40,853 bases of DNA, taken from positions 1 through 40,853 of the forward strand of contig JANWWK010000091.1 in the NCBI GenBank assembly GCA_025056175.1, in the 5' to 3' direction. A program made the position numbers and the translations under genes. Below the pieces are notes generated by a model. The model was given only the letters and a program-made list of their open reading frames with translations, was not told where the DNA came from and made no database searches. This DNA comes from Anaerolineales bacterium (GTDB lineage: Bacteria; Chloroflexota; Anaerolineae; Anaerolineales; Villigracilaceae). Positions 16,970 through 40,019 of the stretch are shown piece by piece. Position 1 is the first letter of the stretch; the number at the start of each line of letters is the position of its first letter.

Positions 16970-19900
16970 ATGCCGCAACAGGAAAGTGCAGAGAAACGCC
17001 GCAAAACGGTTGGTGTGTTTGTTTCGCAGGTGGGACGGGTTTGGGGCGCCGATTACATGGCCGCCATCACCGATACTGCCAGAGCGCGGGATGTCAATCT
17101 CATCTGTTTTGTGGGCGGCCGACCAACTGCTGTCACCACGCCCGGACATCTCTCTCCCTCGTATGGTTTGTATGACCTCGCTAAAACTGCCGACCTGGAT
17201 GGTCTGATTCTCGCTGCCGATTTAGGACATGGTGTTTCCGGCGAAGAAATTCGTCAGTTCGCACAGCATTTCTCCACTTTTCCTCTCACGTCCACTGCGC
17301 TGGAAGTAGAACACACCCCCAACCTGATGGTGGACAGTGTCGGAGGAATGCGTTTGCTTATTCGACACCTTATCGAGACGCATGGCTATCGGCGGATTGC
17401 CTTCATTCGCGGCCCCAAAGGGCAAATCGAAGCCGAACAACGCTTGTTTGCCTACCGCGAGGAACTCAAGGCGCATGGTATCGAATATGACGAAAAACTG
17501 GTGACTTCGGGTGATTACAGCGTTGAAAGCGGACGTGCCGCCATCAAAAAACTGGTGGAAGACCGCAAGATGAAATTCCAGGCGGTTGCTGCCGCCAACG
17601 ACCGCATGGCGTTTGGGGCGATGGAAGCGCTTCGTGGTTATGGCATGAATATTCCCACCGATGTCGCTGTGACCGGTTTCGACGATGTGCGTGAAGCGCG
17701 TTCGCTGGGTGTTCCGCTCACCACCGTTCGCCAACCGTTTTATGACCTTGGCAAGAACACGTTTGAGACCTTGCTCAAGGTGATAGATGGAGATACCGAA
17801 CCGACCCTCACGACCATCCCCACCAGTCTGGTAGTGCGCTGGTCGTGTGGTTGTCAGCCGCGGTTCATTCAGCAAGCGCACATTTCCCGCGAGGAAGTGG
17901 CCCGCACCGGCACGCTTGAAAACAAGCAGGATGCCTGTATGCGCGCGATGTTTGAGGCCAGTGGTGTGCCAATGCCTTCCAAACCTGCGCTCCTCAAGGC
18001 TTATGCGCCAATTTGGGAAAATTTCCTGTTTGCCATGCGTGAGGAGCGTCCGGCAGAGAGTTTCCTGAGCGCCATTGAACAGGCCATTCTGACTCTACAA
18101 AAGTACAACGATGACCCCGGAGACTGGCACAATGTGCTCTCGGTTTTCCGCCGCCATGCGCTGGCGGGCATCATCCACAAAGATGCTACTTTACAGGCCG
18201 AAAATCTGTTTCAACAGGCGCGCATGTTGATTGGGGAACTCTCCCAGCGTCACCAGGCCTATCAACGGCTCGAACTGGAACAGGAAGAGCAGATTTTGCA
18301 ATCCTTCAGTTTCGATATGGCGCCCGCCATGAGTTTACAGGAAATTGGTGCGGCCATTCAAAAGAATTTTCCTTCGATGGGGGTTGAAAGGCTGTATGTG
18401 ATGTTCTACGACCGGATTGCTCGACCGCAATCGGCGTTGATTCCCCCCTCCCAGAGCCATCAACTTTTCCTGCAATACGAAAATGGGCGCTGTGAACTGT
18501 TCACCGAGCAACCAAAACTGGCGACCGGGCATCTGATTCCTCGCGCCAGCATCCCTACCGACCGGCGTTACACGGCGGTTGTCATGCCGCTGGCGCTGGC
18601 ACAAAGCCGGTTTGGCTTTATGTGGATTGAAACCAAAGCGGATAACTGGGAAGTGTGCGTTCGTGTGCGCAATCTGCTCTCCAGCGCGCTTTTGCGCATT
18701 ATGCTGGTCGAACAACGCGAGGCTGCCCAGCGCGAGGTGGAACGTCTGCTCTACGAGGCCAAACAGCGCGCCGAAGAATTAGACCGTTTGTACCAGCAGG
18801 AGCAGGAACGCCGCCGTGAGGCCGATGCCCTTGCTAAAGCGGCGCGAAATCTCTCCAGTGTCATCAGTGTCGAAGCCTTACCAGCCAAAATTTTGGAGCA
18901 ACTGGCAACGGTTATGCCGTATGAACGCGGCGCTTTGTTGATGGAAGAGTTCGACGGCACAGTCAGCCTGATGGCGCACCGCGGCTTTCCAGACGACCGG
19001 CGTGCGGATGAGTTGCGGATTCAAATTAACCCCGGCGGTGTGTATGACCAGATTGCCCGCTCCGGCGAGGTGAAAGTGGTGGATGACGTGACTCAGGAAC
19101 CGGGTTGGTTTCAGGTTGAATGGTTGCCCGTTCATCACTCCTGGGTTGGCATTCCGCTGTTTGCCAAGAATCGTGTGGTGGGCATGCTCTCGCTCACTCG
19201 CGTTCCAAAGGCCGCTTTTACCGCCGATGATTTGCTCCTGGCCTCCACGTTTGCAATGCAGGCTTCGATTGCCCTGCAAAACGCTCGCCTGTACGATGAG
19301 CAGGCGCGTTTCAACGAAATCATGGAACACGCGGTTGAGGCGCGCGTGGCAGAATTGCACGACGCTTTGAACACGCTCGAAAAGCTCAACAAGAACAAAA
19401 CCTCATTCATTCAGGTTGCCGCGCATGAATTGCGTACCCCGCTGACGGTTATGAAGGGTTACCTGGGCATTCTCAAGGGGCATTCAGCCCTTCAGGAGCA
19501 GGAAGCGTTGCTCCAGGCGTTGGACGGGGTGATGAAAGGCACCGACCGATTGCATCAGGTCATCAACGCGATGCTCGATGTTGCCAAACTTGACAGCCAG
19601 GCCATTACGCCGCACATGGAACCCACCATCATTGGCCTTGTGTTGCAGTTGGTGCAAAAAGAATACAAAAACGACCTCAAAGAACGCAACATCACGCTCA
19701 CGGTGGAGAGCAGTGTGAGCCAGTTGCCGCAAATTTTGGCCGACCCGCAATTGTTGCAAAAAGCGCTCGATGCTGTGGTGGTCAATGCCATTAAGTTCAC
19801 GCCCGATGGCGGCAAAATTACCATCAGCGGTGAGGTAGTGCAGGATGAACCCAGAGGGGAGTGGGTTGAAATTCGCGTTGCAGATACCGGTATCGGGATA

Positions 19901-20137
19901 GACCCCGCTAATCACAAAGTCATTTTTGAGAAGATGTATCAGATTGGCAAGGTGGAATTGCATTCTTCGGGGCGCACCAAGTTCAAAGGCGGTGGCCCGG
20001 GCCTCGGGCTGGCAATTGCTCAAGGCATTATCAAAGCACACGATGGGAAAATTTGGGTTGAAAGCCCCGGTTATGATGAAGAAAAATTGCCCGGCAGTAC
20101 GTTTTTCATCCGCCTTCCACTCCGTAAGCCGGCATGA
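16970..20137 (+). CDS. Soluble hybrid sensor: LacI-type ligand-binding domain, GAF domains and histidine kinase
   Basis: This is a 1055-residue protein without signal peptide or transmembrane helices. Residues 12-285 form a LacI/GalR-type periplasmic-binding-protein fold (KTVGVFVSQVGRVWGADYM, FIRGPKG, AAANDRMAFGAMEALRGYG, VTGFDDV) but lack the helix-turn-helix. A helical linker follows, then a GAF-like region (about 450-600), a coiled coil (about 585-635) and a second GAF (about 630-775). A HisKA domain carries His819 (HELRTP), and the HATPase domain has Asn939 (N box), ADTGIGID and GGGPGLGLA near 1007. It should autophosphorylate in response to a cytosolic small ligand, most likely a sugar or sugar phosphate, and pass phosphate to an unlinked response regulator; none is encoded nearby. 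galK directly downstream on the opposite strand fits a sugar theme. Confidence 0.88.
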   Translation: MPQQESAEKRRKTVGVFVSQVGRVWGADYMAAITDTARARDVNLICFVGGRPTAVTTPGHLSPSYGLYDLAKTADLDGLILAADLGHGVSGEEIRQFAQHFSTFPLTSTALEVEHTPNLMVDSVGGMRLLIRHLIETHGYRRIAFIRGPKGQIEAEQRLFAYREELKAHGIEYDEKLVTSGDYSVESGRAAIKKLVEDRKMKFQAVAAANDRMAFGAMEALRGYGMNIPTDVAVTGFDDVREARSLGVPLTTVRQPFYDLGKNTFETLLKVIDGDTEPTLTTIPTSLVVRWSCGCQPRFIQQAHISREEVARTGTLENKQDACMRAMFEASGVPMPSKPALLKAYAPIWENFLFAMREERPAESFLSAIEQAILTLQKYNDDPGDWHNVLSVFRRHALAGIIHKDATLQAENLFQQARMLIGELSQRHQAYQRLELEQEEQILQSFSFDMAPAMSLQEIGAAIQKNFPSMGVERLYVMFYDRIARPQSALIPPSQSHQLFLQYENGRCELFTEQPKLATGHLIPRASIPTDRRYTAVVMPLALAQSRFGFMWIETKADNWEVCVRVRNLLSSALLRIMLVEQREAAQREVERLLYEAKQRAEELDRLYQQEQERRREADALAKAARNLSSVISVEALPAKILEQLATVMPYERGALLMEEFDGTVSLMAHRGFPDDRRADELRIQINPGGVYDQIARSGEVKVVDDVTQEPGWFQVEWLPVHHSWVGIPLFAKNRVVGMLSLTRVPKAAFTADDLLLASTFAMQASIALQNARLYDEQARFNEIMEHAVEARVAELHDALNTLEKLNKNKTSFIQVAAHELRTPLTVMKGYLGILKGHSALQEQEALLQALDGVMKGTDRLHQVINAMLDVAKLDSQAITPHMEPTIIGLVLQLVQKEYKNDLKERNITLTVESSVSQLPQILADPQLLQKALDAVVVNAIKFTPDGGKITISGEVVQDEPRGEWVEIRVADTGIGIDPANHKVIFEKMYQIGKVELHSSGRTKFKGGGPGLGLAIAQGIIKAHDGKIWVESPGYDEEKLPGSTFFIRLPLRKPA

Positions 20138-20139
20138 AT

Positions 20140-20177
20140 CACATGGCGCAAGTCAGCGACTTGCGCCATGTGTTTTT
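20140..20177 (+). terminator. Rho-independent terminator of the sensor kinase gene
   Basis: A perfect 15-bp stem (20140-20154 with 20058+100-20172, i.e. 20158-20172) and a 3-nt loop are followed by TTTTT. The T-run overlaps the stop codon of the converging galK gene. On the minus strand no T-run follows the stem. Confidence 0.9.
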
Positions 20178-21348
20178 ACAACAAATGCGCGCCTGCCGAA
20201 GCTTTCGAGATGTAAATTTCTGGGGCGAGGCCTGTGCGGGCGCGGTAGCCCTCTGCAAGTGTTTGTGCGAACGTTTCGGCATGTTCGCGTGCAACCAGGT
20301 TAACCGTACAGCCGCCAAAGCCGGCGCCGGTCAGACGGGCGCCGTAACAGCCCGGCAGGGATTGTGCCACTTCCACCATGGCATCCAGTTCGGCGCAGGA
20401 GACTTCATACAGGTCGCGCAAACTGACGTGGCAGGCATTCATCAGTGCGCCGAAACCGGTCAGGTCGCCGGAGCGTAACAGGGAAATGGCCTGTTGCGTG
20501 CGTGCAATTTCTTCCACCACATGCCGGGCGCGCTTTTCGGTTTGCGTGGGCAGTTGAGCGGATAGGCGGTTGAAGTCGTCGGGGGAGACATCGCGCAAAG
20601 AACGGATGCCAGGCAGGTGGGTCTGCAAGTGGCGCACGGCCTCTTCACAGGCGGCGCGGCGGTTGTTGTACTCGCCGCTGGTCAGTTTACGGCGCACGGT
20701 GGTATCGGCGACCACAATCGAGACTGATTCGGGCAGGGCGAGTGCTTCCCATTCCAGCGAGCGGCAATCGAGCAGCAACAGGCGGTTTTCAATGCCGCAG
20801 GCCGAGGCGAACTGGTCCATGATGCCACAGTTGACGCCCACATAGTGATTTTCAGCACGCTGGCCGAGTTTTGCCAGCTCCATTGGCGGTAGAGACCACC
20901 CCCCCAGCGTTTGCCAGGCCACGCCAAAAGCCATTTCCACCGAAGCCGAAGAACTCAAGCCAGAGCCACGCGGTACGTTGGAGGCAAAGACGGCATTCAG
21001 AGCAGGCGTTTCCAGGCCGGCCTGGCGCAGGGCCCACATGACGCCGGCGGGGTAGCGCGCCCAATCGGGCAGGGGAGCGCCATCCAGGCCGGTTTTTGCC
21101 TCCAGCGTTTCAGGTGAAAAAATCGCTTGTTGGTCGAAATCCACCGCCCACAGCGTGGTCTGGTCGTTCTTTGCAGGGCTGAAGGCCACGAAGGTGGCGC
21201 GGTCAATCGCGGTGGGTAAGACGAATCCATCGTTGTAATCTACATGTTCGCCCAGTAAATTTACCCGCCCCGGCGCGCGGGCAATGAATGCGGGCGGCTG
21301 GCCGAATTTTTGCCGGAAGATGGCGGAAACGGCTTCAGGAAGGTTCAT
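20176..21348 (-). CDS. galK: Galactokinase
   Basis: This is a 390-residue GHMP kinase. The galactokinase signature GRVNLLGEHVDYNDG is at 28-41 (sugar binding). The ATP-binding GLSSSAS loop is at 130-136, the catalytic Asp178 in MDQFASACG, and the C-terminal GHMP motif in TGAGFGG. It phosphorylates galactose at C1 with ATP, the first step of the Leloir pathway. galT is not in the window; an epimerase of uncertain specificity lies at 1957. The ATG at 21348 follows AGGTG by 3 nt; a GTG at 21354 is the alternative start. It is convergent with the sugar-sensor kinase and divergent from the Reg_prop cyclase. Confidence 0.95.
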   Translation of the reverse strand: MNLPEAVSAIFRQKFGQPPAFIARAPGRVNLLGEHVDYNDGFVLPTAIDRATFVAFSPAKNDQTTLWAVDFDQQAIFSPETLEAKTGLDGAPLPDWARYPAGVMWALRQAGLETPALNAVFASNVPRGSGLSSSASVEMAFGVAWQTLGGWSLPPMELAKLGQRAENHYVGVNCGIMDQFASACGIENRLLLLDCRSLEWEALALPESVSIVVADTTVRRKLTSGEYNNRRAACEEAVRHLQTHLPGIRSLRDVSPDDFNRLSAQLPTQTEKRARHVVEEIARTQQAISLLRSGDLTGFGALMNACHVSLRDLYEVSCAELDAMVEVAQSLPGCYGARLTGAGFGGCTVNLVAREHAETFAQTLAEGYRARTGLAPEIYISKASAGAHLL

Positions 21349-21384
21349 AGTCACCTGCTGTGGTTGGGTTAGATGCGAATAGGA

Positions 21385-21449: not shown

Positions 21450-24400
21450 ATGTTTGTTTCTCGTTTTTTGCTGGGCGTGCTGTGGAGTGTTGCACTGACC
21501 CTGACTCCGCTTTCTGCGCCACAACGCGTGGAAGTCGCCTCGTCAGACGGGTCGGCATTCGTGTATCGGGCCGATGCGCGCTTTGAGCGGCTGACGGTGG
21601 AAGATGGCCTGCCCAGCGGTACGGTGCTGGGAGTGCTTCAAGACAGGCAAGGGTTCATGTGGTTCGCCACGGCCGATGGGCTGGCGCGGTACGATGGGTA
21701 TGAGTTTAAAACGTATCGGCATGACCCGGAGAACCCCAACAGTCTCACCCACAACAACACGTTTGCCCTGCTGCAAAGCCGTGATGGGTTGATTTGGGTC
21801 GGCACCGACCCCGGCGGGTTGAATGTGTACGACCCGCAGACGGATACGTTTCGTGTGTATCGGCATGATCCCCAGGACCCCTATAGCCTGCCCAATGATA
21901 GCGTATGGTCTTTGCTCGAAGCCCAGGACGGCTCGATTTGGGTCGGGACTCGCAACGGACTGGGGCGGCTCGACCGTCAGACCGGACGATTCAAAAACTA
22001 TTTGCATGACCCCAACAATCCACGTTCGCTGGCCTGGCCGGTGGTTCAGCGCCTGTATCAGGACCGTGCTGGCACGCTGTGGGTTGGCACGCGGTCAGGT
22101 TTGCAGCGTTACAACCCACAGACCGATGACTTTACCACCTTTAAGAATGACTCGGCAAATCCCAGGAGCCTTTCTGCCAACAACGTATGGGCGATTTTAG
22201 AAGATTCGCAGGGAAATTTTTGGGTTGGGACGCGTGGCGGCGGCCTGAACCGCATGGACCGACAAACCGGCACGTTCACCGCGTATCGGTATGACCCGGT
22301 TGGCGCGAACCGATTGAGCGATGACCGCATCTGGAGCATTTACCAGGACTCCGCCGGGCGCTTGTGGATTGCGACCGAAAACGGCGGCTTGAACCTGTTT
22401 GACCCACAGACCGAATCGTTTACTGTCTTTCGACACAACCCGAATGACCCGTTCAGTGTGAGCGCCGATGACCTGTTCGCTATTTACGAAGACCGCTCCG
22501 GTGTTTTATGGGTGACAGGGCGCGGCGGCGGCGGGGTGAACTTGCTTTATCCGGCGCTGCAACGTTTTGGCTGGTATCGGCAAATTGCGAACGGGCCGGT
22601 TTCCCTCTCGAGCGGTAACGTCTTTGCTATTTTACCCGAAGGGGATACCCTGTGGGTTGGCACGTTTGGCGGCGGACTGAATCGCATTCAACGCAGCACT
22701 GGCGCGGTGCAGGTGTATCGCTACGATGTCGGCAACCCAAATAGCTTGTCGAGCGACAAAGTCTATTACATCTTCCGCGATTCGGAGGGTGTCTTGTGGG
22801 TGGCAACTTCAGGCGGCGGGCTGAACCGGCTGGATGAAACCACTGGGAATTTCACCGCTTATAAGTTGATTGCTGATGACCCGACCTCACTTCCCAGCAA
22901 TTTCATCACCACCATGGCGCAGGCCGGCCCGCATCGTTTGTGGGTTGGAACACTGGGCTGGGGGCTGGCCCTGTTTGATACGCGCAGCGGCAAAGTCATT
23001 CAGCTTTACAGGAACGACCCCAATGACCCTCTCAGCCTGGCGGAAGATACCATCTACGACCTGGAAACGGACTCGCAGGGAAATGTGTGGATTGCCACCG
23101 CACGAGGTGGCCTGAACCGGCTCGACCCACTCACCGGTCAGTTTACCCGTTTTCAGAACGCCCCGGACAACCCCAATTCCATCGCCAGTAACACCACTTA
23201 TGCTCTTTATCTGGATGAACCCAGCGGCGTTCTTTGGGTTGGTACCTCCGGCGGGTTGTGCCGGCTGGAGATTGCCACCGGAACCTGGCAAAACTATAAC
23301 AACCGCCGCGGGCTTGTTGGAGATACGGTGGTCGGGATTCAGCCGGATGGCGAGGGTGGCTTGTGGGTCAGCACCACGCGCGGCATTAGCCGTTTTGACC
23401 CGCTGCTGGGTGCTTTTCGGAATTATGATGTGCGCGACGGTCTGCAAGGCAATCAGTTTAACATCGCCAGCACTGCCCGCGCTTCCGATGGTGAGGTCTT
23501 CTTTGGCGGGCAAAATGGCGTCAATTTCTTTCACACACACGATATTTTCGATAATCCCTATGAACCGAAGGTGGTTTTTACCGGCCTGGAATTGTTCAAC
23601 CTGCCTGTGCCGGTGGATGGGGAAATTCTCAGCCAGCCTGTTGAAACCACCTCGTCGATCACCTTGCGCTACGACCAGTCGGTCTTCACCCTTCGCTTTG
23701 CCGGGCTGAGTTACCAGAATTCCGCGCGCAACCTGTACCGTTACAAATTGGAAGGTTTCGACAAGTCCTGGTCACCGCCCAAAACACTTCGCCAGGCCAC
23801 CTACACCAACCTGCCGGCAGGAACGTATAACTTTGTGGTGTATGCGGCCAACAACGATGGACAGTGGACTCGCACGCCGGCGCAGTTACAAATCACCGTC
23901 CTCCCGCCCTGGTGGGAAACGTGGTGGTTCCGTGGCCTGTCATTTTTGCTCCTGCTCGTGTTGCTGGTGGGAGGCGTGCAGTTGCGCGTGCAGCAAATCC
24001 GTCGGTTGAATGCCGAACTGGAGCGGCGCGTGGCAGAGCGCACTGCCGAACTCCAGCATGAAATTCTGCGGCGGCAGGCCGTGGAAGAGCAGTTGCAGCA
24101 AACCAACCGCGCCCTGCACGCGAAACTGGATGAAATTTTGGAATTACAGAACCAGTTGCGCGAGCAGGCCATCCGCGATGCGCTCACTGGCTTGTTCAAT
24201 CGCCGCCATCTGGCAGATGTAATGACCGGCGAATTGAGCCGCGCACGGCGTGCCAACTATCCGGTGACTTTTATGCTGATTGACCTGGACCATTTCAAAG
24301 AAGTGAACGACCGGTATGGACATCAAACCGGAGACGAGGTGCTGAAGGCAACGGGCCAAATGCTGCTTTCTCACATCCGGCAAGGCGATTATGCTTTCCG

Positions 24401-24695
24401 TTATGGCGGCGAGGAATTCCTTATTATTTTGCCTGGCACAGCTCCGCAAGACGCCCTGCACCGCGCCGAGCAGTTACGCGCCGATTTTGCGGCGCTTCGT
24501 GCGCAGGCCAATGGTACACCGATTGGTATCACTGTCTCAATTGGTGTTGCAGTATATCCCTTCGATGGAGACAAAACCGAAGACATCCTGCACTACGTAG
24601 ATGAAGCGCTTTATCAGGCGAAAGGCAAAGGCCGCGACCGCGTCATCCTTGCGCCCAACACGCGTAAGGCATTGAAGTCGGGTCAGGCAACGTGA
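21450..24695 (+). CDS. Reg_prop beta-propeller/Y_Y_Y sensor diguanylate cyclase
   Basis: This is a 1081-residue single-pass membrane sensor. A signal peptide (1-23) precedes about 14 Reg_prop repeats (about 35-690), seen as recurring LWVGT..GGLNR.D..TG.F..Y motifs. These would make two seven-bladed propellers. A Y_Y_Y domain follows (about 750-820; YRYKLEGFDKSW), then a transmembrane helix (about 828-848) and a coiled coil (850-900). The GGDEF domain ends the protein, with an active GGEEF at 986-990. RQGD at 977-980, five residues upstream, is a complete inhibitory I-site, so c-di-GMP should feed back on activity. The propeller probably binds a glycan or polysaccharide outside the cell, by analogy with hybrid two-component sensors of Bacteroides; the ligand is not identifiable. 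It is divergent from galK. Confidence 0.93.
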   Translation: MFVSRFLLGVLWSVALTLTPLSAPQRVEVASSDGSAFVYRADARFERLTVEDGLPSGTVLGVLQDRQGFMWFATADGLARYDGYEFKTYRHDPENPNSLTHNNTFALLQSRDGLIWVGTDPGGLNVYDPQTDTFRVYRHDPQDPYSLPNDSVWSLLEAQDGSIWVGTRNGLGRLDRQTGRFKNYLHDPNNPRSLAWPVVQRLYQDRAGTLWVGTRSGLQRYNPQTDDFTTFKNDSANPRSLSANNVWAILEDSQGNFWVGTRGGGLNRMDRQTGTFTAYRYDPVGANRLSDDRIWSIYQDSAGRLWIATENGGLNLFDPQTESFTVFRHNPNDPFSVSADDLFAIYEDRSGVLWVTGRGGGGVNLLYPALQRFGWYRQIANGPVSLSSGNVFAILPEGDTLWVGTFGGGLNRIQRSTGAVQVYRYDVGNPNSLSSDKVYYIFRDSEGVLWVATSGGGLNRLDETTGNFTAYKLIADDPTSLPSNFITTMAQAGPHRLWVGTLGWGLALFDTRSGKVIQLYRNDPNDPLSLAEDTIYDLETDSQGNVWIATARGGLNRLDPLTGQFTRFQNAPDNPNSIASNTTYALYLDEPSGVLWVGTSGGLCRLEIATGTWQNYNNRRGLVGDTVVGIQPDGEGGLWVSTTRGISRFDPLLGAFRNYDVRDGLQGNQFNIASTARASDGEVFFGGQNGVNFFHTHDIFDNPYEPKVVFTGLELFNLPVPVDGEILSQPVETTSSITLRYDQSVFTLRFAGLSYQNSARNLYRYKLEGFDKSWSPPKTLRQATYTNLPAGTYNFVVYAANNDGQWTRTPAQLQITVLPPWWETWWFRGLSFLLLLVLLVGGVQLRVQQIRRLNAELERRVAERTAELQHEILRRQAVEEQLQQTNRALHAKLDEILELQNQLREQAIRDALTGLFNRRHLADVMTGELSRARRANYPVTFMLIDLDHFKEVNDRYGHQTGDEVLKATGQMLLSHIRQGDYAFRYGGEEFLIILPGTAPQDALHRAEQLRADFAALRAQANGTPIGITVSIGVAVYPFDGDKTEDILHYVDEALYQAKGKGRDRVILAPNTRKALKSGQAT

Positions 24696-24728: not shown

Positions 24729-26750
24729 ATGATGCAAAGCGAAAAAGAGTTCTTCGCCATCCCTGCCGGGATTTTGACCGTTGCTATCGTGCTGATTTGT
24801 TGTTGCTGCCTGGTAATTGGAGTGGGTGGGGGGGCGTTGTATTGGGCAGTAGACCAGATTGAATTACCGGACATTGACCAGCCGCCGGATTACGAGCAAG
24901 AATCGGGCGAACCCATTCCTGTCACCCCAATTATCGAACGCCCCGACCCGGCAGAACTTTCAGACGAGACGCTGGAGACTTTGCGAAACACGCTCGTGCC
25001 GGAAAATGACCCGCGTGAACTGGTTTGCCGCTTCAAAGGCATCTGCAACGTGCCGGAGACTTTCCCCCAGGGTCCGTTTCAGGTTGGCGATAAGAAGCAG
25101 TTCTGGGTCATGAACGTCCAGACCATCGAATACCGCCGTCTGACCGCTGTGTTAGCGTACAAAACCGATGTGGCCTACTTTTGGGTCGAGGAGGGGGTGC
25201 GCTTCAATCAGCGCGAGGCCGAAGCCCTGGTAGATGCCTTTAGCCGCAAGATGGTGCCGACCAACCGTGAGTTCTTCGGCATGGAGCCTTCGCCCGGCAT
25301 CGATGGTGACCCGCACATCTACCTGCTCTATGCGCGGGAGATTGGCGGCAGCACCGCAGGTTATTTCTCTTCGTCGGATGCTCTGCACCCGCGTGTGGAT
25401 GAATACTCCAACGGACATGAAATGTTTGTCTTCAATGCTGATAACTCGCCGCTAAACGATACGTACACGTATGGTGTGCTGGCACACGAGTTTCAGCACA
25501 TGATTCACTTCGGACGTGACCGCAACGAAACCTCCTGGCTCAATGAAGGTTTCTCTGAACTGGCCGTTTTGCTCAACGGCTACTCCACCGGGTTCAAAGA
25601 TTCGTTCTATCTCTCTCGCCCCGACCTGCAACTGACCGATTGGGGAGAAGATGTCGGTCAGAACGCACCGTACTACGGGGCGAGCTTTTTGTTTGCGACT
25701 TATTTTCTGGACCGCTTTGGAGAGGAAGCCACTCAGGCACTGGTGCGCGAGGCCGATAACGGCATGGACAGCGTAGACCGCGTGTTGGAGGCAATTGGGG
25801 CGACCGATGCGCGCACCGGTCAGCCCTTGCGCGCCGATGACCTGTTCATGGATTGGGTTGTTGCCAATTATCTGCAAGACGAAGCGGTGGCGGATGGCCG
25901 TTACGCCTATCAACGTTACACGCCTCTCCAGACGCCCTCCGAAGCCGCCTCCTTTTCCACCTGCCCGGCAGAATATACGGATACGGTCAACCAGTATGGC
26001 GTAGATTACCTTCGCTTTTCGTGCCAGGGGCAGTTTACCTTGCGTTTCGAGGGTTCCACCGTCACCACGCTTTTGCCGGTAGATGCGTACTCCGGCAAAT
26101 ATGCCTTTTGGTCCAACAAAGGGGATGAATCCGATATGACACTCACCCGTGCCTTCGATTTCACAGGGGTTTCTGGCCCACTGACGCTCTCGTACCGCAC
26201 CTGGTATGACATCGAAGAGGGCTGGGATTATGCATACGTCACCGTATCGGAGGATGATGGCAAAAGCTGGCAAATTCTGCTTACCCCCTCTGGCACGGCT
26301 GAGAACCCGGCGGGCAATGCGTATGGTTGGGGTTACACCGGGAAGACAAACGGCTGGGTGGAAGAATCCGTAGATTTGAGCGCGTTTGCCGGTAAAAAAG
26401 TGCTTGTGCGCTTTGAGTACATCACCGATGCCGCCGTCAATGGCGAGGGCTTTCTGGTAGATGATATTGCCATTCCCCAAATCAACTACTTTACCGATTT
26501 CGAGAACGGTGCAGATGACTGGCAAGCCGAAGGCTTTGTGCGTGTTCAAAACCGCCTGCCGCAAATCTTTCGACTGATGCTCATCCGCCGCGGTGGGCAG
26601 ATAACTGTAGAGAACATCCCTCTCAACCCTGACCAGACGGCGGAAATCACCCTGAATCTGGGTGGTGATACGCGGGAGGTCATTCTGGTCGTGAGCGGCG
26701 TTACGCGCTTTACGCGCGGGGTAGGGAGTTATCGGCTCACAGTCAGATAA
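24729..26750 (+). CDS. Membrane-anchored HExxH zinc metalloprotease (M30/M6-like) with immune-inhibitor-A-like C-terminus
   Basis: This is a 673-residue protein. A short cytosolic N-terminus is followed by one transmembrane helix (about 11-38) containing the unusual ICCCCL run, so the rest is probably extracellular and tethered. The zinc motif HEFQH is at 253-257, and NEGFSEL (272-278, Glu273) supplies the third ligand region. This pattern is shared with hyicolysin-type M30 and related gluzincins. The C-terminal 250 residues contain a jelly-roll region with a WDYAYVTVSEDDGKSW stretch and a VDDIAIP motif, typical of immune-inhibitor-A and MAM-like domains. The substrate is unknown. The ATG at 24729 follows a GGAGAG site, with a second ATG one codon later. 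It is 33 nt after the cyclase gene and 18 nt before the amidase gene. Confidence 0.82.
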   Translation: MMQSEKEFFAIPAGILTVAIVLICCCCLVIGVGGGALYWAVDQIELPDIDQPPDYEQESGEPIPVTPIIERPDPAELSDETLETLRNTLVPENDPRELVCRFKGICNVPETFPQGPFQVGDKKQFWVMNVQTIEYRRLTAVLAYKTDVAYFWVEEGVRFNQREAEALVDAFSRKMVPTNREFFGMEPSPGIDGDPHIYLLYAREIGGSTAGYFSSSDALHPRVDEYSNGHEMFVFNADNSPLNDTYTYGVLAHEFQHMIHFGRDRNETSWLNEGFSELAVLLNGYSTGFKDSFYLSRPDLQLTDWGEDVGQNAPYYGASFLFATYFLDRFGEEATQALVREADNGMDSVDRVLEAIGATDARTGQPLRADDLFMDWVVANYLQDEAVADGRYAYQRYTPLQTPSEAASFSTCPAEYTDTVNQYGVDYLRFSCQGQFTLRFEGSTVTTLLPVDAYSGKYAFWSNKGDESDMTLTRAFDFTGVSGPLTLSYRTWYDIEEGWDYAYVTVSEDDGKSWQILLTPSGTAENPAGNAYGWGYTGKTNGWVEESVDLSAFAGKKVLVRFEYITDAAVNGEGFLVDDIAIPQINYFTDFENGADDWQAEGFVRVQNRLPQIFRLMLIRRGGQITVENIPLNPDQTAEITLNLGGDTREVILVVSGVTRFTRGVGSYRLTVR

Positions 26751-28320: not shown

Positions 28321-28350
28321 CACCCCATCTTCCCCAAAGGTGAATTGTTC

Positions 28351-31203
<2,853 letters not shown>

Positions 31204-31232
31204 TTACGGAACATGGATAACTGGTAACTGAC

Positions 31233-32075
31233 ATGAAACCAACCGCCCTCATCCTGCAAGCGCACGGTACCAATCGCGACCTGGACGTGGCCGAAGCCCT
31301 GACCCTGGCTGGCGCTGACCCGGTCTTTGCCCCTCTGAATGAATTGCGCGCCGGCAAAAAGCGTTTTTCCGATTACCACCTGCTGGTCATCCCTGGCGGC
31401 TTCTCTTACGCCGATGCCCTCGGCGCGGGCAAATTGCTGGCCCTCGACCTGAACTCCTACTTTGCCGATGAAATCTCCGCCTTTGTGGAAGCGGGCAAAC
31501 CGGTGATTGGCATTTGCAACGGCTTCCAGGCGCTGGTCAAGTCCGGCATTTTGCCGGGGAACCGTCCCTCACCCCTAACCCCTTTCCCATCGGGAGAGGG
31601 GGATTCGCTCCCCTCCCCTACCGGGGGAGGGGCTGGGGGGGAGGGCGCAACGCTCACCTTCAATGCCCAGGGACATTTTGAATGCCGATGGGTGAATTTA
31701 CAGCCGATTTCGCAAAAATGTATCTGGACTCAAGGCCTTCGTGAAATCATTACCTGTCCTATCGCTCATGGCGAAGGCAATTTCCAAACCAATCGCCCGT
31801 CACTGCTTGCCAGGCTTACCGCCAACGACCAGATTGCCCTCACCTACGCCCACCCCGACGGCTCTCCCGCCAACGGCGAATACCCCTTTAACCCCAATGG
31901 CTCCCTGCTCGACATCGCCGGCATCTGCAACCCGCGCGGCAACGTTCTCGGTCTCATGCCGCACCCGGAGAATCACATTTATCCCTGGCAGCATCCGCGC
32001 CATACGCGCGGCGAAAGCGGTGGCAGCGGACTGGTGTTGTTTACGAATGGTGTCAGGTACGCTTCACAGGTTTAG
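31233..32075 (+). CDS. purQ: Phosphoribosylformylglycinamidine synthase subunit PurQ (with in-frame repeat insertion)
   Basis: This is a 280-residue class I glutamine amidotransferase. The nucleophile is Cys95 (GICNGFQALV), and the His244/Glu246 pair lies in MPHPENH. It supplies ammonia from glutamine to PurSSL. It is longer than the usual PurQ (about 225-265). Residues 112-138 (27 residues) are an extra Pro/Gly/Ser-rich loop encoded by an 81-bp C/G-rich repeat, placed right after KSGILPG and before the conserved TLTFNAQGHFECRWV strand. The reading frame is kept. The gene starts 29 nt after the purL stop and purC follows after 67 nt. Confidence 0.94.
   Translation: MKPTALILQAHGTNRDLDVAEALTLAGADPVFAPLNELRAGKKRFSDYHLLVIPGGFSYADALGAGKLLALDLNSYFADEISAFVEAGKPVIGICNGFQALVKSGILPGNRPSPLTPFPSGEGDSLPSPTGGGAGGEGATLTFNAQGHFECRWVNLQPISQKCIWTQGLREIITCPIAHGEGNFQTNRPSLLARLTANDQIALTYAHPDGSPANGEYPFNPNGSLLDIAGICNPRGNVLGLMPHPENHIYPWQHPRHTRGESGGSGLVLFTNGVRYASQV
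31566..31646. repeat. 81-bp C/G-rich repeat inserted in-frame in purQ
   Basis: It begins CCCTCACCCCTAACCCC and ends in a G-rich arm, with internal palindromes (CCC-ATC-GGG and CCCCT-ACC-GGGGG types). It belongs to the same sequence family as the inverted-repeat element at 1094-1246. Its length is a multiple of three with no stop codon, so it adds 27 residues without breaking the gene. Confidence 0.72.
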
Positions 32076-32142
32076 CAGTTATCTGTTTGCCACGTTTTTC
32101 CGTTGGAACTGGATAAGCGCACAACGATCAAGCGGAGTTTTG

Positions 32143-33120
32143 ATGATTTCACGTCAGAGATTGCTGGAATTGCTCCCCCTGGCCTGCGGCGAAACCGATT
32201 TGCCCCTGCCCGGCAGGCAGAGCGGCAAAGTGCGGGAGTGGTATTCGCTCGGAAACGGCAAGCGGCTCATCGTCACCACAGACCGGCTTTCAGCCTTCGA
32301 CCGGATTCTTGCCACAGTCCCCTACAAAGGCCAGGTGTTGAATCAATTATCTGCCTGGTGGTTCAGCCAGACTCAATCTATCCTTCCCAATCACCTGATT
32401 TCTCTCCCCGACCCGAATGCTGCCATCGTGGCCGAAGTTGAGCCGTTGCGGGTAGAAGTGATTGTGCGTGGTTACATCTCTGGTGTTACGACAACCGCTC
32501 TGTGGTATCGCTACCATCTGGGCGAGCGCGAAATTTACGGCTACCGCTTCCCCGAAGGGCTGCGCAAAAACGAGCGACTGCCCGAACCGATTATCACGCC
32601 CACCACGAAGGGCGGCCCCAGCGGACACGATGAACGCCTGACCTGCGCCGAGGTGGTCTCGAAGGGCATTCTTGACGCCGAAACGTGGGAACAGGTGCAG
32701 GCGGCGGCGCTCTCGCTCTTCAAACGCGGGCAGGCGTTGGCGGAACGCGCCGGGCTGATTCTCGTAGATACCAAATATGAATTTGGACGTGCGCCCGATG
32801 GCCGGATTTTGCTGATTGACGAAGTCCACACTCCCGATTCGTCCCGCTTTTGGAAGGCTGATACGTACGAAAGCCGCTTTGCCGCCGGCCTGGAGCCGGA
32901 GAACTTCGACAAGGAATTTGTTCGTATCGCTTACGCTGAAAAAGGCTACCGTGGTGAGGGAGAACCCCCAAAAATGCCGGATGAATTGTGGGTGGCGGCC
33001 AGCGAACGCTATATCACCATCTACGAGAGGCTCACCGGGCAGGAATTTGTGCCGGGCGCGTATCCGGTCAATGAGCGGTTGGTGAAGGCGGTTGGTAACC
33101 TGGTAGCTCGTGATGAGTGA
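32143..33120 (+). CDS. purC: Phosphoribosylaminoimidazole-succinocarboxamide synthase PurC
   Basis: This is a 325-residue SAICAR synthetase. Conserved elements are GKVREWYSL and DRLSAFDRIL near the N-terminus (ATP site), VRGYISG, a TKGG.SGHDE block, and the LVDTKYEFG / LIDEVHTPDSSRFW motifs. It joins CAIR and aspartate with ATP. The longer open frame from 31741 overlaps purQ in another frame and is ignored; ATG 32143 follows a CGGAG site and starts at the family N-terminus. At about 325 residues it is of the longer, fungal-like/bacterial type rather than the 240-residue E. coli type. Confidence 0.95.
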   Translation: MISRQRLLELLPLACGETDLPLPGRQSGKVREWYSLGNGKRLIVTTDRLSAFDRILATVPYKGQVLNQLSAWWFSQTQSILPNHLISLPDPNAAIVAEVEPLRVEVIVRGYISGVTTTALWYRYHLGEREIYGYRFPEGLRKNERLPEPIITPTTKGGPSGHDERLTCAEVVSKGILDAETWEQVQAAALSLFKRGQALAERAGLILVDTKYEFGRAPDGRILLIDEVHTPDSSRFWKADTYESRFAAGLEPENFDKEFVRIAYAEKGYRGEGEPPKMPDELWVAASERYITIYERLTGQEFVPGAYPVNERLVKAVGNLVARDE

Positions 33121-33173
33121 TTGGAGATTGAAATTACCAATTGCCATTTATCCCAAAACGAGGAGATGTTGAA

Positions 33174-33662
33174 ATGACTCCCCTCATCGGAATCATCATG
33201 GGCAGTAAATCCGACTGGGAAACCATGCAACACGCCAGCGAAACGCTCGACACCCTCGGCATTCCTTACGAAGTAAAGGTCGTTTCGGCGCACCGCACGC
33301 CCGATTTGCTGTTTGAGTATGCCGAATCCGCCGCCGGGCGCGGAATCGAGGTTATCATTGCCGGGGCGGGCGGCGCGGCGCACCTGCCAGGTATGACCGC
33401 CGCCAAGACCCATCTACCCGTTTTGGGCGTGCCGGTGCAATCGAAGGCGCTGAATGGCCTGGATTCTCTGCTCTCGATTGTGCAAATGCCGGCTGGTGTG
33501 CCGGTCGGCACGCTGGCAATCGGACGCGCGGGCGCGGTCAATGCGGCTTTGCTGGCGGCGGCTATCGTCGCAAATGCACACCCCGAATATCGCCATGCGC
33601 TGTTAGAATATCGCAGAAGCCAAACGCAATCGGTCCTGGAGAATCCCGACCCGCGAGAGTGA
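33174..33662 (+). CDS. purE: N5-carboxyaminoimidazole ribonucleotide mutase PurE (class I)
   Basis: This is a 162-residue protein with the PurE signatures [22 protein letters not shown] (His40, matching the catalytic His) and [12 protein letters not shown]. It isomerises N5-CAIR to CAIR. The presence of purK two genes downstream indicates the class I (ATP-dependent two-step) route. The ATG at 33174 follows an AGGAG site. The longer frame from 33141 adds residues unlike the family. Confidence 0.96.
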
Positions 33663-33693
33663 ACCGGCAAATGCCTGTAGAAAGGAGTGCGAA

Positions 33694-33927
33694 ATGGCCT
33701 GGTTCAGAACCCCCAAAGAATATCTTCTGACCGGCCTGGCCGGTTTCCTGGTGAGCGCAGTCTTGTTCTATCTTGCCGAAACGCTTTCCTCTGCCCCGAA
33801 CCCTGCGACGTTGATTTACCGACAATCGCAAATCTTTTTTGCAGGAATGGTTCTCTTTCTGGTCTCTGCAATTTTCTTTTTTGCCGGGCTGGGGGCGTTT
33901 GTGTATCGCTGGTGGAGAAAGGAATGA
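33694..33927 (+). CDS. Small two-helix membrane protein of unknown function
   Basis: This 77-residue protein has two predicted transmembrane helices (about 11-30 and 48-70), a polar loop between them and a basic C-terminus (YRWWRKE). An AAAGGAG ribosome-binding site 7 nt upstream supports expression. It sits between purE and purK, with spacers of 31 nt and 10 nt, so it is almost surely co-transcribed with the purine genes. I do not recognise a family. It could be a membrane protein unrelated to purine synthesis that hitch-hikes in the operon. Confidence 0.75.
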   Translation: MAWFRTPKEYLLTGLAGFLVSAVLFYLAETLSSAPNPATLIYRQSQIFFAGMVLFLVSAIFFFAGLGAFVYRWWRKE

Positions 33928-33937
33928 AAGGCCAGCC

Positions 33938-35059
33938 ATGACCACACTTGGAATTTTGGGCGCCGGACAATTGGGGCGGATGCTGGCCCTGGCGGGCTAC
34001 CCGCTGGGGATGCGTTTCCGTTTCTTCGACCCGGCCCCCGATGCTCCTGCCAAATTGTTAGCCGACCATCTCACCGCCGATTATGGCGATACCGACGCTT
34101 TGCGCCGCTTTGCCGACGGGGTGGATGTCATCACTTACGAGTTTGAGAACGTGCCGGTGGAGACGGCGCGCTTTTTGCAGCAGTTTTGCCCCGTTTACCC
34201 GCCGCCCATGGCGCTGGAGAAGGGGCAGGACCGCCTGGTGGAAAAGAATTTTTTCCGCGCGCTGGGCATTCCCACGCCCGATTTTGCAGCAATCAGCACT
34301 GAAACCGATTTGGAACCCGCCGCTGCACTGACCGGCTTTCCAGCGGTGCTGAAAACCCGCCGGATGGGCTACGATGGCAAAGGGCAGTTCACCGTCTGGA
34401 ACCGCGAAGAACTGGCCGAAGCGTTTCGCGCCTTGAACGGTCAGCCCGCCATTCTGGAGCAGTTTATCCCGTTTGAGCGGGAACTCTCCATCCTTGGCGT
34501 GCGCGGCCGGGATGGGGAGATTGTCTTCTACCCTCTGACCGAGAACACCCACCGGGAGGGAATTCTGCGCCTTTCTGTGGCCCCCGCTCCGCGCCGCCCA
34601 CAGACTTCGCAACTGCTGGCGTACCGTCAATCTACGCAATCGTTGGCGGAAATGTATGCCACAGCGCTGATGACTGCGCTCGATTACGTTGGCGTGCTGG
34701 CGATTGAGCTGTTTCAGGCCGGCGACCGCTTGCTGGCAAATGAAATGGCGCCGCGCGTTCACAACAGCGGGCATTGGACTCTCCAGGGTGCGGTCACGTC
34801 TCAGTTCGAGAACCATGTTCGTGCGGTCATGGGTCTTCCGCTGGGGAGCACAAACCCGCTGGGGGTGACGGCAATGGTCAACTTAATCGGACAGATTCCT
34901 CCGCTGGAATCTATCCTGAAAATCGAAGGCGCGCACCTGCACCTGTACGACAAAGCGCCGCGACCGGGTCGCAAGGTGGGGCATATCAACCTGACGGCGC
35001 GCACCCACGACGAATTGCTCTCAAAAGCAGAAATCATCAGAAAACTGGTGGATGGATGA
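33938..35059 (+). CDS. purK: N5-carboxyaminoimidazole ribonucleotide synthetase PurK
   Basis: This is a 373-residue ATP-grasp enzyme. It begins TLGILGAGQLGRMLALAG (nucleotide-fold glycine motif). ATP-grasp elements include FPAVLKTRRMGYDGKGQ, EQFIPFERELSILGVRG and a NEMAPRVHNSGHWT motif. It carboxylates AIR to N5-CAIR using bicarbonate and ATP, feeding PurE. Its last codons overlap the purF start (ATGA at 35056-35059), so the two are translationally coupled. Confidence 0.96.
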   Translation: MTTLGILGAGQLGRMLALAGYPLGMRFRFFDPAPDAPAKLLADHLTADYGDTDALRRFADGVDVITYEFENVPVETARFLQQFCPVYPPPMALEKGQDRLVEKNFFRALGIPTPDFAAISTETDLEPAAALTGFPAVLKTRRMGYDGKGQFTVWNREELAEAFRALNGQPAILEQFIPFERELSILGVRGRDGEIVFYPLTENTHREGILRLSVAPAPRRPQTSQLLAYRQSTQSLAEMYATALMTALDYVGVLAIELFQAGDRLLANEMAPRVHNSGHWTLQGAVTSQFENHVRAVMGLPLGSTNPLGVTAMVNLIGQIPPLESILKIEGAHLHLYDKAPRPGRKVGHINLTARTHDELLSKAEIIRKLVDG

Positions 35060-36513
35060 ACGCATGGCACGACGCGCCGCGTGAAGAATGCGGCATTATC
35101 GGTGTGTTTGCCCCTAACGAAGATGTCGCGCGTATGACGTTCTTCGGGTTGTTTGCGCTTCAGCACCGCGGTCAGGAGGCGGCCGGGATTGCAGTTGCAG
35201 ACGGTCAGACCATTTCGCTCTATAAAAATGTGGGGTTGGTTTCGCAGGTGTTTCGTGCTGGCACGCTGGATGAATTGCGCGGGCATTATGCCATTGGGCA
35301 TACCCGCTATTCGACCACCGGCTCTTCCCTTTTGCGAAATGCTCAGCCGTTCTTAATTGAGACGATGAACGGCCCTTTGGCGTTGGCGCACAACGGTAAC
35401 CTGGTCAATTCGGCGGAGTTACGCGCAGAATTGATGCGGCAGGGGGTGGGGTTTTCGTCTTCTTCAGATAGCGAAGTAATGACGATGATGCTGGCGCGCG
35501 ATGCCGGGCCAACGTGGGAAGCGCGCATCAAAGAAGCAATGAAAAAGTGGGTGGGAGCGTATTCACTCGCCATTCTGACGCGCGATTGCGTTTACGCGGT
35601 GCGCGACCCGTGGGGGTTCCGTCCGCTTGCGGTGGGGATGCTTCCCTCCGGTGGTTACGCGGTGGCTTCGGAGACGGGGGCATTGCGGACGTTGGGGTGT
35701 GAAGCCATTCGTGATGTGCAGCCGGGCGAAATTGTGACCCTCTCGGACAAGGCGTTGACGATTACGCAGGCGCTCCCGCCTGTGAATCCCTCGGCCCGCT
35801 GTGTGTTTGAGTTTATCTATTTCGCCCGCCCCGACCAGACGTGGGAAGGGGTGAACGTCCATGCCGTGCGGCAGCGCCTGGGCGAAGAACTGGCAAAGGA
35901 ATGGAAAGCGAATGTTTCTACAACGAATGCGGCGGATGTGGTCATTCCCGTTCCCGATTCGTCTATTCCGGCGGCGATTGGTTTTTCGCGTGTGAGCGGG
36001 ATTCCGTACAACGACGGTTTCGTGAAGAATCGTTATGTCGGACGCACGTTCATCGAGCCAACTGATTCGCTCCGCAAGCGCGGTGTGGGGATGAAATTCA
36101 ACGTGATTATCGAGAACGTGCTGGGGAAGCGCGTGATTGTGATTGACGATTCGATTGTGCGCGGGAATACCACCGGGCCGCTCATCCGCCTGCTGCGCCA
36201 GGCCGGGGCAAAAGAGGTGCATGTTTGTATTACCTGCCCGCCCATCAAGCATCCGTGCTTTATGGGCGTGGATATGGGAACGTATGACGACCTGATTGCC
36301 CATAAACGAACGGTGGATGAAATCCGTGAGGAAGTGGGGGCGGATTCGCTGACGTTCCTTTCGCTAGACGGGATGATGCGTGCCGTAGGCAGCGCAGAGG
36401 GCTACTGTCAGGCCTGTTTTACGGGGCAATATCCTGTGCCGGTAGATTTGTCAAGTGCAAAGACCGGGTTTGAGCTGCCCATCATCGAAAAACGAGGAAA
36501 AAAAGAACAATGA
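35056..36513 (+). CDS. purF: Amidophosphoribosyltransferase PurF (Fe-S type)
   Basis: This is a 485-residue enzyme for the first committed step, PRPP plus glutamine to phosphoribosylamine. A short propeptide (1-11) precedes Cys12 of the N-terminal-nucleophile glutaminase domain (EECGIIGVF). The PRPP-binding loop VIVIDDSIVRGNTTGP is at 360-375. Cys249, Cys401, Cys451 and Cys454 (ARCVFEF, HPCFMG, YCQAC) lie at the positions of the [4Fe-4S] ligands in Bacillus subtilis PurF, so this enzyme should be the oxygen-labile cluster type with propeptide processing. It overlaps purK upstream and purDM downstream by 4 nt each. Confidence 0.96.
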   Translation: MNAWHDAPREECGIIGVFAPNEDVARMTFFGLFALQHRGQEAAGIAVADGQTISLYKNVGLVSQVFRAGTLDELRGHYAIGHTRYSTTGSSLLRNAQPFLIETMNGPLALAHNGNLVNSAELRAELMRQGVGFSSSSDSEVMTMMLARDAGPTWEARIKEAMKKWVGAYSLAILTRDCVYAVRDPWGFRPLAVGMLPSGGYAVASETGALRTLGCEAIRDVQPGEIVTLSDKALTITQALPPVNPSARCVFEFIYFARPDQTWEGVNVHAVRQRLGEELAKEWKANVSTTNAADVVIPVPDSSIPAAIGFSRVSGIPYNDGFVKNRYVGRTFIEPTDSLRKRGVGMKFNVIIENVLGKRVIVIDDSIVRGNTTGPLIRLLRQAGAKEVHVCITCPPIKHPCFMGVDMGTYDDLIAHKRTVDEIREEVGADSLTFLSLDGMMRAVGSAEGYCQACFTGQYPVPVDLSSAKTGFELPIIEKRGKKEQ

Positions 36514-38813: not shown

Positions 38814-38846
38814 TCCAAAATCATCAACATCCCATCCCCCAAGCCT

Positions 38847-40019
38847 ATGAACTCTCTTCCTCTTCGCTACGGAATGAACCCCCAACAGACCCCGGCGCGT
38901 GTCTTTATGCGCGATGGCAGCGACTTGCCTTTGACCGTCTTGAACGGTTCGCCCGGCTACATCAATCTGCTCGATGCGTTGAATGGTTGGCAACTGGTGC
39001 GCGAGTTGAAAACCGTCACAGGTTTGCCCGGCGCGGCCTCTTTCAAGCACGTCAGCCCGGCGGGAGCGGCCGTGGGCTTGCCGCTCAATGACATCCTCCG
39101 AAAAATCTACTTTGTAGAAGATGCTGAACTCTCTCCACTGGCTTCCGCGTATGCGCGCGCACGTGGCGCCGACCGGTTGTGTTCATTTGGGGATTTCATT
39201 GCGCTTTCTGACCCTGTGGACGAGCCAACAGCCCGGCTGATTGCTCGTGAAGTCTCGGATGGCGTGATTGCGCCTGCCTACGAACCATCCGCGCTCGAAA
39301 TTCTCAGGCAGAAAAAACAGGGCAAATACGTCGTTTTGCAGATGGACCCCGCCTACGAAGCACCGTCCAGCGAAACCCGGGATGTGTTTGGAATTACGTT
39401 TGAGCAGGGACGCCATACCCGTCTGACCAGCCCGGCCGATTTTGAGAACCGGGTGACCCGCAATAAGAACCTGCCTTCGGAGGCTTTGCGTGACCTGCAA
39501 ATTGCCTGGATTACGCTCAAGTACACACAATCCAATTCGGTGTGCTTCGTCAAAGATGGACAGACGATTGGTGTAGGTGCTGGTCAACAATCGCGCGTTC
39601 ACTGCGTTCGCCTGGCAGCCCACAAAGCCGATTTGTGGCGCTTGCGCCAGCATCCGGTGGTGCTTTCTTTGCCCTTCCGCCCAGAAATCAAGCGCCCGGA
39701 GCGCGATAATGCGATTGACCAGTTCTTACGCGATGACATCACCCCGCGCGAAAAGGCTGCCTGGCCAGACATTTTTACCGCGTTGCCGCGTCAGCTGACG
39801 CCGGAAGAGAAACGCACCTGGCTGGATGGCCTGACGGATGTCGCCCTTGGGTCGGATGCGTTCTTCCCCTTTGCCGATAGCATTCACCGCGCGGCTGCCT
39901 CTGGCGTCCGTTACGTGTTCGAGCCGGGTGGTTCGGCACGCGATGCCGAAGTGATTGCCGCCGCCGATGATTACGGCATGGTGATGGCCTTTACCGGCGT
40001 GCGTTTGTTCCATCATTAG
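38847..40019 (+). CDS. Stand-alone AICAR formyltransferase (PurH-like, lacks IMP cyclohydrolase domain)
   Basis: This 390-residue protein corresponds to the C-terminal transformylase half of PurH. It has LRYGMNPQQTPARVF, the catalytic SFKHVSPAGAAVG (Lys67-His68), a KYTQSNSVCFVKDG block, IGVGAGQQSRVHC, DAFFPFADSIHRAA and the terminal VMAFTGVRLFHH. It formylates AICAR with 10-formyl-THF to FAICAR. The N-terminal MGS-like cyclohydrolase domain of ordinary PurH is missing, and there is no room upstream for it: purDM ends 33 nt before. The window therefore contains no enzyme to close the FAICAR ring to IMP. The upstream spacer has no strong ribosome-binding site. Confidence 0.93.
   Translation: MNSLPLRYGMNPQQTPARVFMRDGSDLPLTVLNGSPGYINLLDALNGWQLVRELKTVTGLPGAASFKHVSPAGAAVGLPLNDILRKIYFVEDAELSPLASAYARARGADRLCSFGDFIALSDPVDEPTARLIAREVSDGVIAPAYEPSALEILRQKKQGKYVVLQMDPAYEAPSSETRDVFGITFEQGRHTRLTSPADFENRVTRNKNLPSEALRDLQIAWITLKYTQSNSVCFVKDGQTIGVGAGQQSRVHCVRLAAHKADLWRLRQHPVVLSLPFRPEIKRPERDNAIDQFLRDDITPREKAAWPDIFTALPRQLTPEEKRTWLDGLTDVALGSDAFFPFADSIHRAAASGVRYVFEPGGSARDAEVIAAADDYGMVMAFTGVRLFHH

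Follow-up and report, generated by a model that had tools for sequence, protein, structure and literature searches.

We analyzed a 40,853-nucleotide stretch of DNA (hereafter the window) that corresponds to positions 1 to 40,853 of contig JANWWK010000091.1 from an Anaerolineales bacterium of the family Villigracilaceae (assembly GCA_025056175.1). The open reading frame (ORF) at positions 16970 to 20137 encodes a soluble, orphan sensor histidine kinase with a LacI-type input. We think it probable that the LacI core of this kinase reads a cytosolic metabolite and that the kinase signals to a remote regulator. As judged from sequence, the architecture supports a LacI-type sensor that works inside the cell and is coupled directly to a kinase, with the following layout.

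16970 to 20137, + strand: sensor histidine kinase with a LacI-type input, 1055 amino acids, ORF from ATG to stop.
16997 to 17857, + strand: LacI/GalR-type ligand-binding core, residues 10 to 296, without a helix-turn-helix (HTH) domain (Pfam, AlphaFold model, PDB match 9nt5).
17837 to 17854, + strand: R-x-S-C-G-C motif where the LacI core ends, residues 290 to 295 (alignment of 40 sequences).
17858 to 18289, + strand: first part of the transducer, residues 297 to 440, conserved and probably helical (helix from a poor single-sequence model only).
18290 to 18739, + strand: cryptic GAF-like domain, residues 441 to 590 (hhalign with a class-wide profile).
18740 to 18868, + strand: presumed coiled coil, residues 591 to 633 (from the helix at 559 to 629 in the poor model).
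18869 to 19279, + strand: GAF domain, residues 634 to 770 (GAF_2).
19397 to 19597, + strand: HisKA dimerization and phosphoacceptor domain, with H819 within HELRT (Pfam, alignment of 40).
19742 to 20125, + strand: HATPase_c domain, with N939, D972/G974/G976, and G1009/G1011/G1013 (Pfam, alignment of 40).

Pfam placed Peripla_BP_1 at residues 14 to 287 and Peripla_BP_3 at residues 132 to 293 (2.2e-29), followed in the C-terminal half by GAF_2 at 634 to 770 (3.3e-15), HisKA (PF00512) at 810 to 876 (2.4e-13), and HATPase_c (PF02518) at 925 to 1052 (3.1e-24). This order agrees with an earlier interpretation of the DNA made without database searches (the sequence-only reading), which had described a LacI/GalR-fold core joined to a complete HisKA/HATPase module. 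It had also spoken of GAF domains in the plural; Pfam recognizes a single one and the second, at 441 to 590, emerges from profile comparison only, which leaves the plural defensible. The LacI HTH (PF00356) was not matched by Pfam in the kinase, the open frame of 1056 codons has nothing in frame before residue 1, and residues 12 to 295 of the core model align with LacI residues 62 to 328. The protein thus starts at the LacI hinge and lacks the HTH, in line with the claim that it has no DNA-binding domain. The claim that no membrane segment is present, and hence that the input is intracellular, was borne out by hydropathy alone, without a dedicated transmembrane predictor: the highest 19-residue Kyte-Doolittle mean was 1.47 in the kinase, with no membrane-like stretch, and 1.68 across the 40 aligned sequences introduced below. 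Pfam found neither a receiver (REC) domain nor an AraC HTH in the kinase, both of which are present in its paralogues.

Thirty-nine other full-length proteins, 49 to 88% identical to the window kinase, align over nearly its whole length, which excludes a chance architecture. Together with the window protein, they form the alignment of 40 used throughout (the truncated orthologue L087 was left out). An orthologue was counted by hand in 86 of 150 genomes of the family (residues 1 to 600, E ≤ 1.1e-104), with an open frame of 1041 to 1113 codons in 78 of them and a shorter, split, or cut frame in 8. Across the class, matches to the transducer at E ≤ 1e-140 occurred in 9 of 298 genomes, all of this family, and the best match outside it reached 3e-46. 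Among plasmids, 3023 records matched residues 1 to 600, at no place covering 80% of them; among the 40 records listed, the ones that bore a named feature were mostly LacI-type regulators. Residues H819, N939, D972, G974, G976, G1009, G1011, and G1013 are invariant in all 40 sequences, and the kinase is therefore predicted to be active. The HELRT H-box fits the ExxT phosphatase motif of bifunctional kinase/phosphatases.

The region that joins the LacI core to the recognized GAF domain (residues 297 to 600, hereafter the transducer, labeled LINK in our domain strings) is as conserved as the sensor, with a mean majority share of 0.69 to 0.73 versus 0.69 over the 40 sequences. Residues 296 to 608 of these sequences gave only scattered weak matches in Pfam and NCBIfam, any one family being hit in at most 3 of the 40 members (Pfam, best E 0.01) or 4 of the 40 (NCBIfam, best E 0.006). 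With a class-wide profile, region 441 to 590 matched GAF domains in hhalign (82%, E 1e-5). A narrow transducer profile matched neither GAF domains nor the linker of the Ruminococcus proteins described below; only class-wide profiles did so. No solved structure matched the transducer by sequence at E ≤ 0.1. A full-length AlphaFold model computed without an alignment was poor (predicted local distance difference test [pLDDT] score of 38) and was kept only as a rough hint of secondary structure; it shows a helix at 559 to 629.

The same N-terminal part recurs on other outputs. We define the module as an HTH-less LacI core, a Cys-Gly-Cys (CGC) motif, and the ∼300-residue transducer, all present in the window kinase. 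The window's genome encodes two further proteins that carry this N-terminal part on HisKA-HATPase-REC-AraC. A transducer profile matched 39 of 298 class genomes (9 of this family) and 14 of 301 phylum genomes, most of the same family. From 55 class-level and paralogue loci, we obtained 64 proteins with a LacI core and at least one other domain, including 20 of the type PBP-LINK-HK-REC-AraC and 9 of the type PBP-LINK-HK (PBP, periplasmic-binding-protein-type core; HK, histidine kinase); the others carry GAF arrays, GGDEF, HD-GYP, or several REC or Hpt domains. One protein (L176, 3667 to 6441, + strand) consists of the LacI core, the transducer, and a GAF domain and ends in a STAS domain, an unusual output for such a sensor. 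Another genome, of the same order, holds two LacI-core/transducer/GGDEF proteins close together (L189, 4518 to 6776 and 10643 to 12928, both on the - strand). In a tree of 74 core-plus-transducer sequences built by a quick method, the 10 orthologues used formed one branch with a support of 100, and outputs were scattered. Counting strongly supported branches alone, the AraC hybrids require a minimum of 5 changes and the GAF-only set a minimum of 4. These output counts and swaps are approximate, some ORFs being cut by contig ends and some C termini lying outside our small domain library.

In the phylum of Ruminococcus, which we take to be Bacillota, a search with A9, a profile of 63 rows, recovered the module from 5 of 199 genomes and gave no match in the other 194. 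The 8 proteins have HATPase, HK-REC, HD-GYP, or GGDEF outputs. For two with a HATPase output, L266 (559 to 3117, receiver from 3122 onward) and L267, a receiver gene starts within a few bases of the stop codon, so that kinase and adjacent receiver are likely cognate partners that serve this input module. In two phyla, the same input module is reused on HK-REC-AraC, GGDEF, HD-GYP, and STAS outputs. A set of LacI-AraC proteins from Ruminococcus (L016 to L027) combines an HTH-less LacI core, a GAF-like linker, and, by eye, a degenerate GGDEF-like stretch and an AraC-type end. With a class-wide profile, their linker can be aligned to the part of the transducer that is GAF-like (87%, E 4e-6), and A9 at E ≤ 0.001 did not find these proteins in the five of their genomes searched.

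The genes around the AraC hybrids set that subfamily apart. Among 77 neighbors of 22 AraC hybrids (two on each side, ORFs of at least 100 amino acids), 13 were ABC permeases, 6 were ABC ATPases, and 5 had the oligopeptide-transporter C-terminal region; GH53, PfkB, and three MocA-type oxidoreductases were also found. These ABC and carbohydrate genes tie the subfamily to solute uptake, partly of carbohydrates, unlike the group of the window kinase.

The exit of the LacI core bears the hallmark of the module. In orthologues, it reads R-x-[S/T]-C-G-C, with R290, C293, G294, and C295 identical in all 40 and C293 and C295 the only cysteines among the invariant columns. SCGC was found in all 64 class-level fusions. 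The 8 module proteins of the Ruminococcus phylum comprised six with SCGC, within R-x-[ST]-C-x-C, and two with ARTCGC, so that CGC was present in 112 of the 112 module proteins counted (40 + 64 + 8). This count leaves out L165, whose ORF has no LacI core, and L261 from Ruminococcus, which joins a LacI core to GGDEF, matches the transducer only weakly (4.4e-5), and reads ESCGC. The profiles that found most class and Ruminococcus-phylum proteins begin after the CGC, so the count is not circular there, whereas 15 loci came from a query that contained the motif; CGC-bearing proteins are related and hence do not represent independent events. As a control, HTH-bearing LacI regulators were sought at 39 loci in two sets (30 and 9 loci), of which 2, one in each set, gave no ORF. 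Within the last 55 residues (the matching stretch for one long protein), C-x-C occurred in none of the 37 scored.

Such invariance raises the question of whether the CGC pair is a redox or metal switch, in which case the module would read ligand and redox or metal state together. The universal occurrence of CGC in the module and its absence from HTH-bearing regulators favor this idea. However, the invariance may instead be structural. A single cysteine is not special at this position, since SC or TC is found in the tail of 9 of the 37 HTH-bearing regulators, and in the Ruminococcus AraC-type relatives C-x-C is kept in 12 of 12 proteins with the middle Gly replaced by another residue in every one. 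We regard a switch function as conceivable but unlikely.

What the core binds was approached through its fold and pocket. An AlphaFold model of residues 1 to 307, built from 15 sequences (pLDDT, 80.6), superposed on the LacI ancestor 9nt5 with a Z score of 30.3 over 266 residues (root mean square deviation, 2.5) and on CcpA (2jcg) with a Z score of 30.6 over 274 residues (root mean square deviation, 3.2). Foldseek ranked sugar-bound LacI ancestors, CelR-cellobiose, and RbsR-ribose high. Many LacI relatives fall within 1 to 2 Z units of each other, and this structural ranking does not decide the ligand class. By alignment, R158, Y183, N210, and D238 coincide with pocket positions of the LacI ancestor, presumably equivalent to the LacI ligand contacts R197, W220, N246, and D274 (LacI numbering). 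The putative pocket residues R158, N210, and D238 are identical in all 40 sequences, which makes a sugar-like ligand plausible. Since these residues are invariant while the gene context drifts, it is probable that the whole family shares one sugar-like ligand. The closest named match to the core came from a metagenome-assembled genome labeled Anaerolineae bacterium Nak57 (88% identity over residues 1 to 297).

Alternatively, the LacI core could bind a protein, as CcpA binds HPr-Ser-P, or could serve only as a dimerization platform. CcpA and CcpA-HPr complexes are indeed among the best structural matches, but so are the sugar-bound relatives named above, and the closeness of the scores deprives the ranking of force. 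Moreover, the residues aligned with the small-molecule pocket of LacI are invariant, which argues against a protein ligand. We judge this alternative to be rather improbable.

In the scheme that we favor, a cytosolic metabolite, probably sugar-like, would bind the core and close its two lobes. From the domain order, closure would first be felt at the CGC junction and would then travel along the transducer, with its helical and GAF-like parts, the coiled coil, and the GAF domain. A second coiled coil would relay it to the helices of the dimerization and histidine phosphotransfer (DHp) domain. The change in DHp would set the balance of autophosphorylation versus phosphatase activity, and a response regulator whose gene lies elsewhere would receive the phosphate. 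In this scheme, we infer rather than observe directly that a ligand binds, in which direction the signal runs, that the coiled coils form, and that the partner acts in trans.

The search for a partner gave little in the window's genome. Pfam detected no receiver domain in the 27 other ORFs of the window scanned, and of the 68 receiver matches found genome-wide, none is on the contig of the kinase, so the statement that no response regulator is nearby proved correct; the sequence-only reading had left the output unassigned, and this still holds for the window's genome. The overlapping ORF at 20134 to 20478 was considered as a response regulator and rejected: it has no Pfam or NCBIfam match and is antisense to galK. 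In two related genera, 13 of 20 loci (L075, L079 to L081, L084 to L086, L088 to L092, and L094) carry a single-domain regulator, DivK-like by eye, whose gene is on the other strand, 2.4 to 5.2 kb downstream of the kinase; several of the 20 are cut short. It was found at none of the 21 loci outside those genera, one of which (L083) has a different receiver protein upstream. Because DivK-like homologues also occur in genomes without a kinase orthologue (e.g., G004 and G028) and the window's genome gave only a weak match (1.6e-26), the regulator is a candidate partner for the related genera only.

Several points weigh against the scheme. The 13 loci with a DivK-like regulator indicate that the partner may not be remote in some relatives. 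Some LacI-fold proteins, such as CcpA, respond to a protein, and CcpA is among the best structural matches of the core. The recognized GAF domain could be the true sensor. Finally, sugar-nucleotide-type genes near the kinase in two genera (see below) would also fit a link to glycans.

LacI-type sensing is textbook one-component regulation. Compared with LacI/GalR regulators (PF00532/PF13377; LacI, CelR, RbsR, CcpA, and PurR), the core of the window protein is alike in fold, aligned pocket positions, and length, but the protein lacks the HTH, has a histidine kinase output, and carries CGC at the exit of the core. With soluble HisKA kinases that contain GAF domains, it shares the GAF, HisKA, and HATPase arrangement and all catalytic motifs; its input differs, being a LacI core plus a transducer without a Pfam or NCBIfam family. 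The available part of a sensor-kinase review describes periplasmic-binding-protein-type domains only as periplasmic parts, as in BvgS and EvgS, and cytosolic sensing domains as usually PAS or GAF (PMC8534201). Neither that part nor the corresponding part of PMC1183210 mentions a LacI-type kinase. HK-REC-AraC hybrids, which join these domains in one chain, as in Bacteroides, are represented here by the two paralogues in the window's genome and by class relatives that share the N-terminal module, whereas the window protein has neither REC nor AraC; the Bacteroides hybrid two-component systems are membrane sensors, according to the accessible text of PMC11253607. The portion of PMC8846402 available to us lists Periplas_BP, which LacI regulators contain as well, among the sensory domains of cyclic di-GMP (c-di-GMP) enzymes and states that it may bind sugars. 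Relatives of our module are likewise found on GGDEF and HD-GYP, whereas the output of the window protein is a kinase, and neither the transducer nor the CGC pair is mentioned in that portion.

No paper listed by searches of an open-access library described such a kinase or the CGC hallmark in its title or at the beginning of its abstract; some queries depended on Pfam names, which authors do not always spell out, and most subscription journals were outside the scope. Each of the domains is known on its own, and domain databases may already contain such architectures. A broader proposal is that a widespread cytosolic module without a family name, made of an HTH-less LacI core, an obligatory CGC, and the transducer, has spread by transfer among proteins with different outputs in at least two phyla (kinases, hybrid kinase-transcription factors, c-di-GMP enzymes, and STAS proteins), with the CGC gating signaling by redox or metal state. 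In this full form, we put it forward only tentatively; if it were true, each module protein would read a metabolite and a second cue together. In this family, a LacI sensor no longer acts on DNA but is coupled, by way of a dedicated transducer, to outputs based on phosphorylation or c-di-GMP. Being soluble and tractable, the system also lends itself to studying how a coiled-coil kinase is driven by a LacI core and whether the invariant CGC pair acts as a second switch.

We compared 41 gene neighborhoods (40 fetched plus the window); in 35 of them, the sequence that follows the kinase downstream is 4 kb or longer. Two neighbors in the window bear on this comparison.

20176 to 21354, - strand: galK, a convergent neighbor but not a conserved partner (TIGR00131, 374 bits against a cutoff of 226.65).
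24729 to 26750, + strand: InhA-like MAM-domain protein with weak metalloprotease similarity, the most frequent neighbor (27 of 41 loci).

The kinase and galK converge with a gap of 41 bp; the sequence-only reading had noted the convergence and suggested a sugar or sugar phosphate as the input. A sensor of galactose or galactose-1-phosphate that controls galK would fit this convergence, which recurs in G011 and G033, as well as the LacI fold and the sugar-like pocket positions. However, galK is beside the kinase in only these 3 of the 41 neighborhoods, all from the window's genus, whereas the invariance of the pocket residues points to a single ligand for the whole family; the conserved linkage to galactose genes expected of a galactose-responsive regulator was thus not found. 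Furthermore, convergent genes share no promoter, and the ABC permease family BPD_transp_1 was not among the 25 of 98 neighbor families shown, a list that ends at 5 members. We consider a galactose sensor very unlikely, and galK is best read as a local neighbor. This corrects a galactose annotation that is tempting but limited to one genus.

Homologues lie largely, but not wholly, at nonsugar loci, an outcome that the sequence-only reading had named as one speaking against its view. The commonest neighbors were InhA-like proteins (27 of 41) and ClpC-like ATPases (21), followed by UDP-glucose-dehydrogenase-like proteins and methyltransferases (17 each), glycosyltransferase-like proteins (14), and small cupins (13). 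The InhA-like, ClpC-like, methyltransferase, and cupin genes prevail, although the UDP-glucose-dehydrogenase-like and glycosyltransferase-like genes, found mainly in two genera, qualify the picture. These last two were named by eye, the other frequent neighbors also by Pfam. Pfam analysis of 114 near neighbors (one on each side for all 41 loci, two for every second locus, ORFs of at least 100 amino acids) gave 13 InhA-like, 9 methyltransferase, and 8 ClpB-type proteins. At many loci of one large genus, the ClpC-like, InhA-like, (cupin,) and kinase genes follow each other on one strand, with gaps of ∼65 to 330 bp before the kinase. In genus g16 (4 loci), a gene recognized by eye as encoding an Era-like GTPase precedes the kinase, either immediately or separated from it by one small gene. 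The InhA-like MAM gene near the kinase often stands behind the ClpC-like gene, which does not imply a functional link to the kinase.

A purine sensor like PurR, acting in step with the purine operon located 8 kb downstream at 28345 to 40609, is hardly credible: PurR is a structural match but no better than the sugar regulators, and none of the 40 other neighborhoods contains purine genes, a weak test given that only 11 of them reach as far as purL does in the window. The purine run itself (+ strand) comprises PurL, PurQ, PurC, PurE, PurK, a PurF-like protein, a PurD-PurM fusion (36510 to 38813), an AICARFT/IMPCHase match, and a PurN-type formyltransferase. Next to galK, the ORF at 21450 to 24695 (+ strand) encodes a Reg_prop beta-propeller and Y_Y_Y domain fused to GGDEF, relatives of which (E ≤ 1e-20) were found in 4 of the 40 other neighborhoods.

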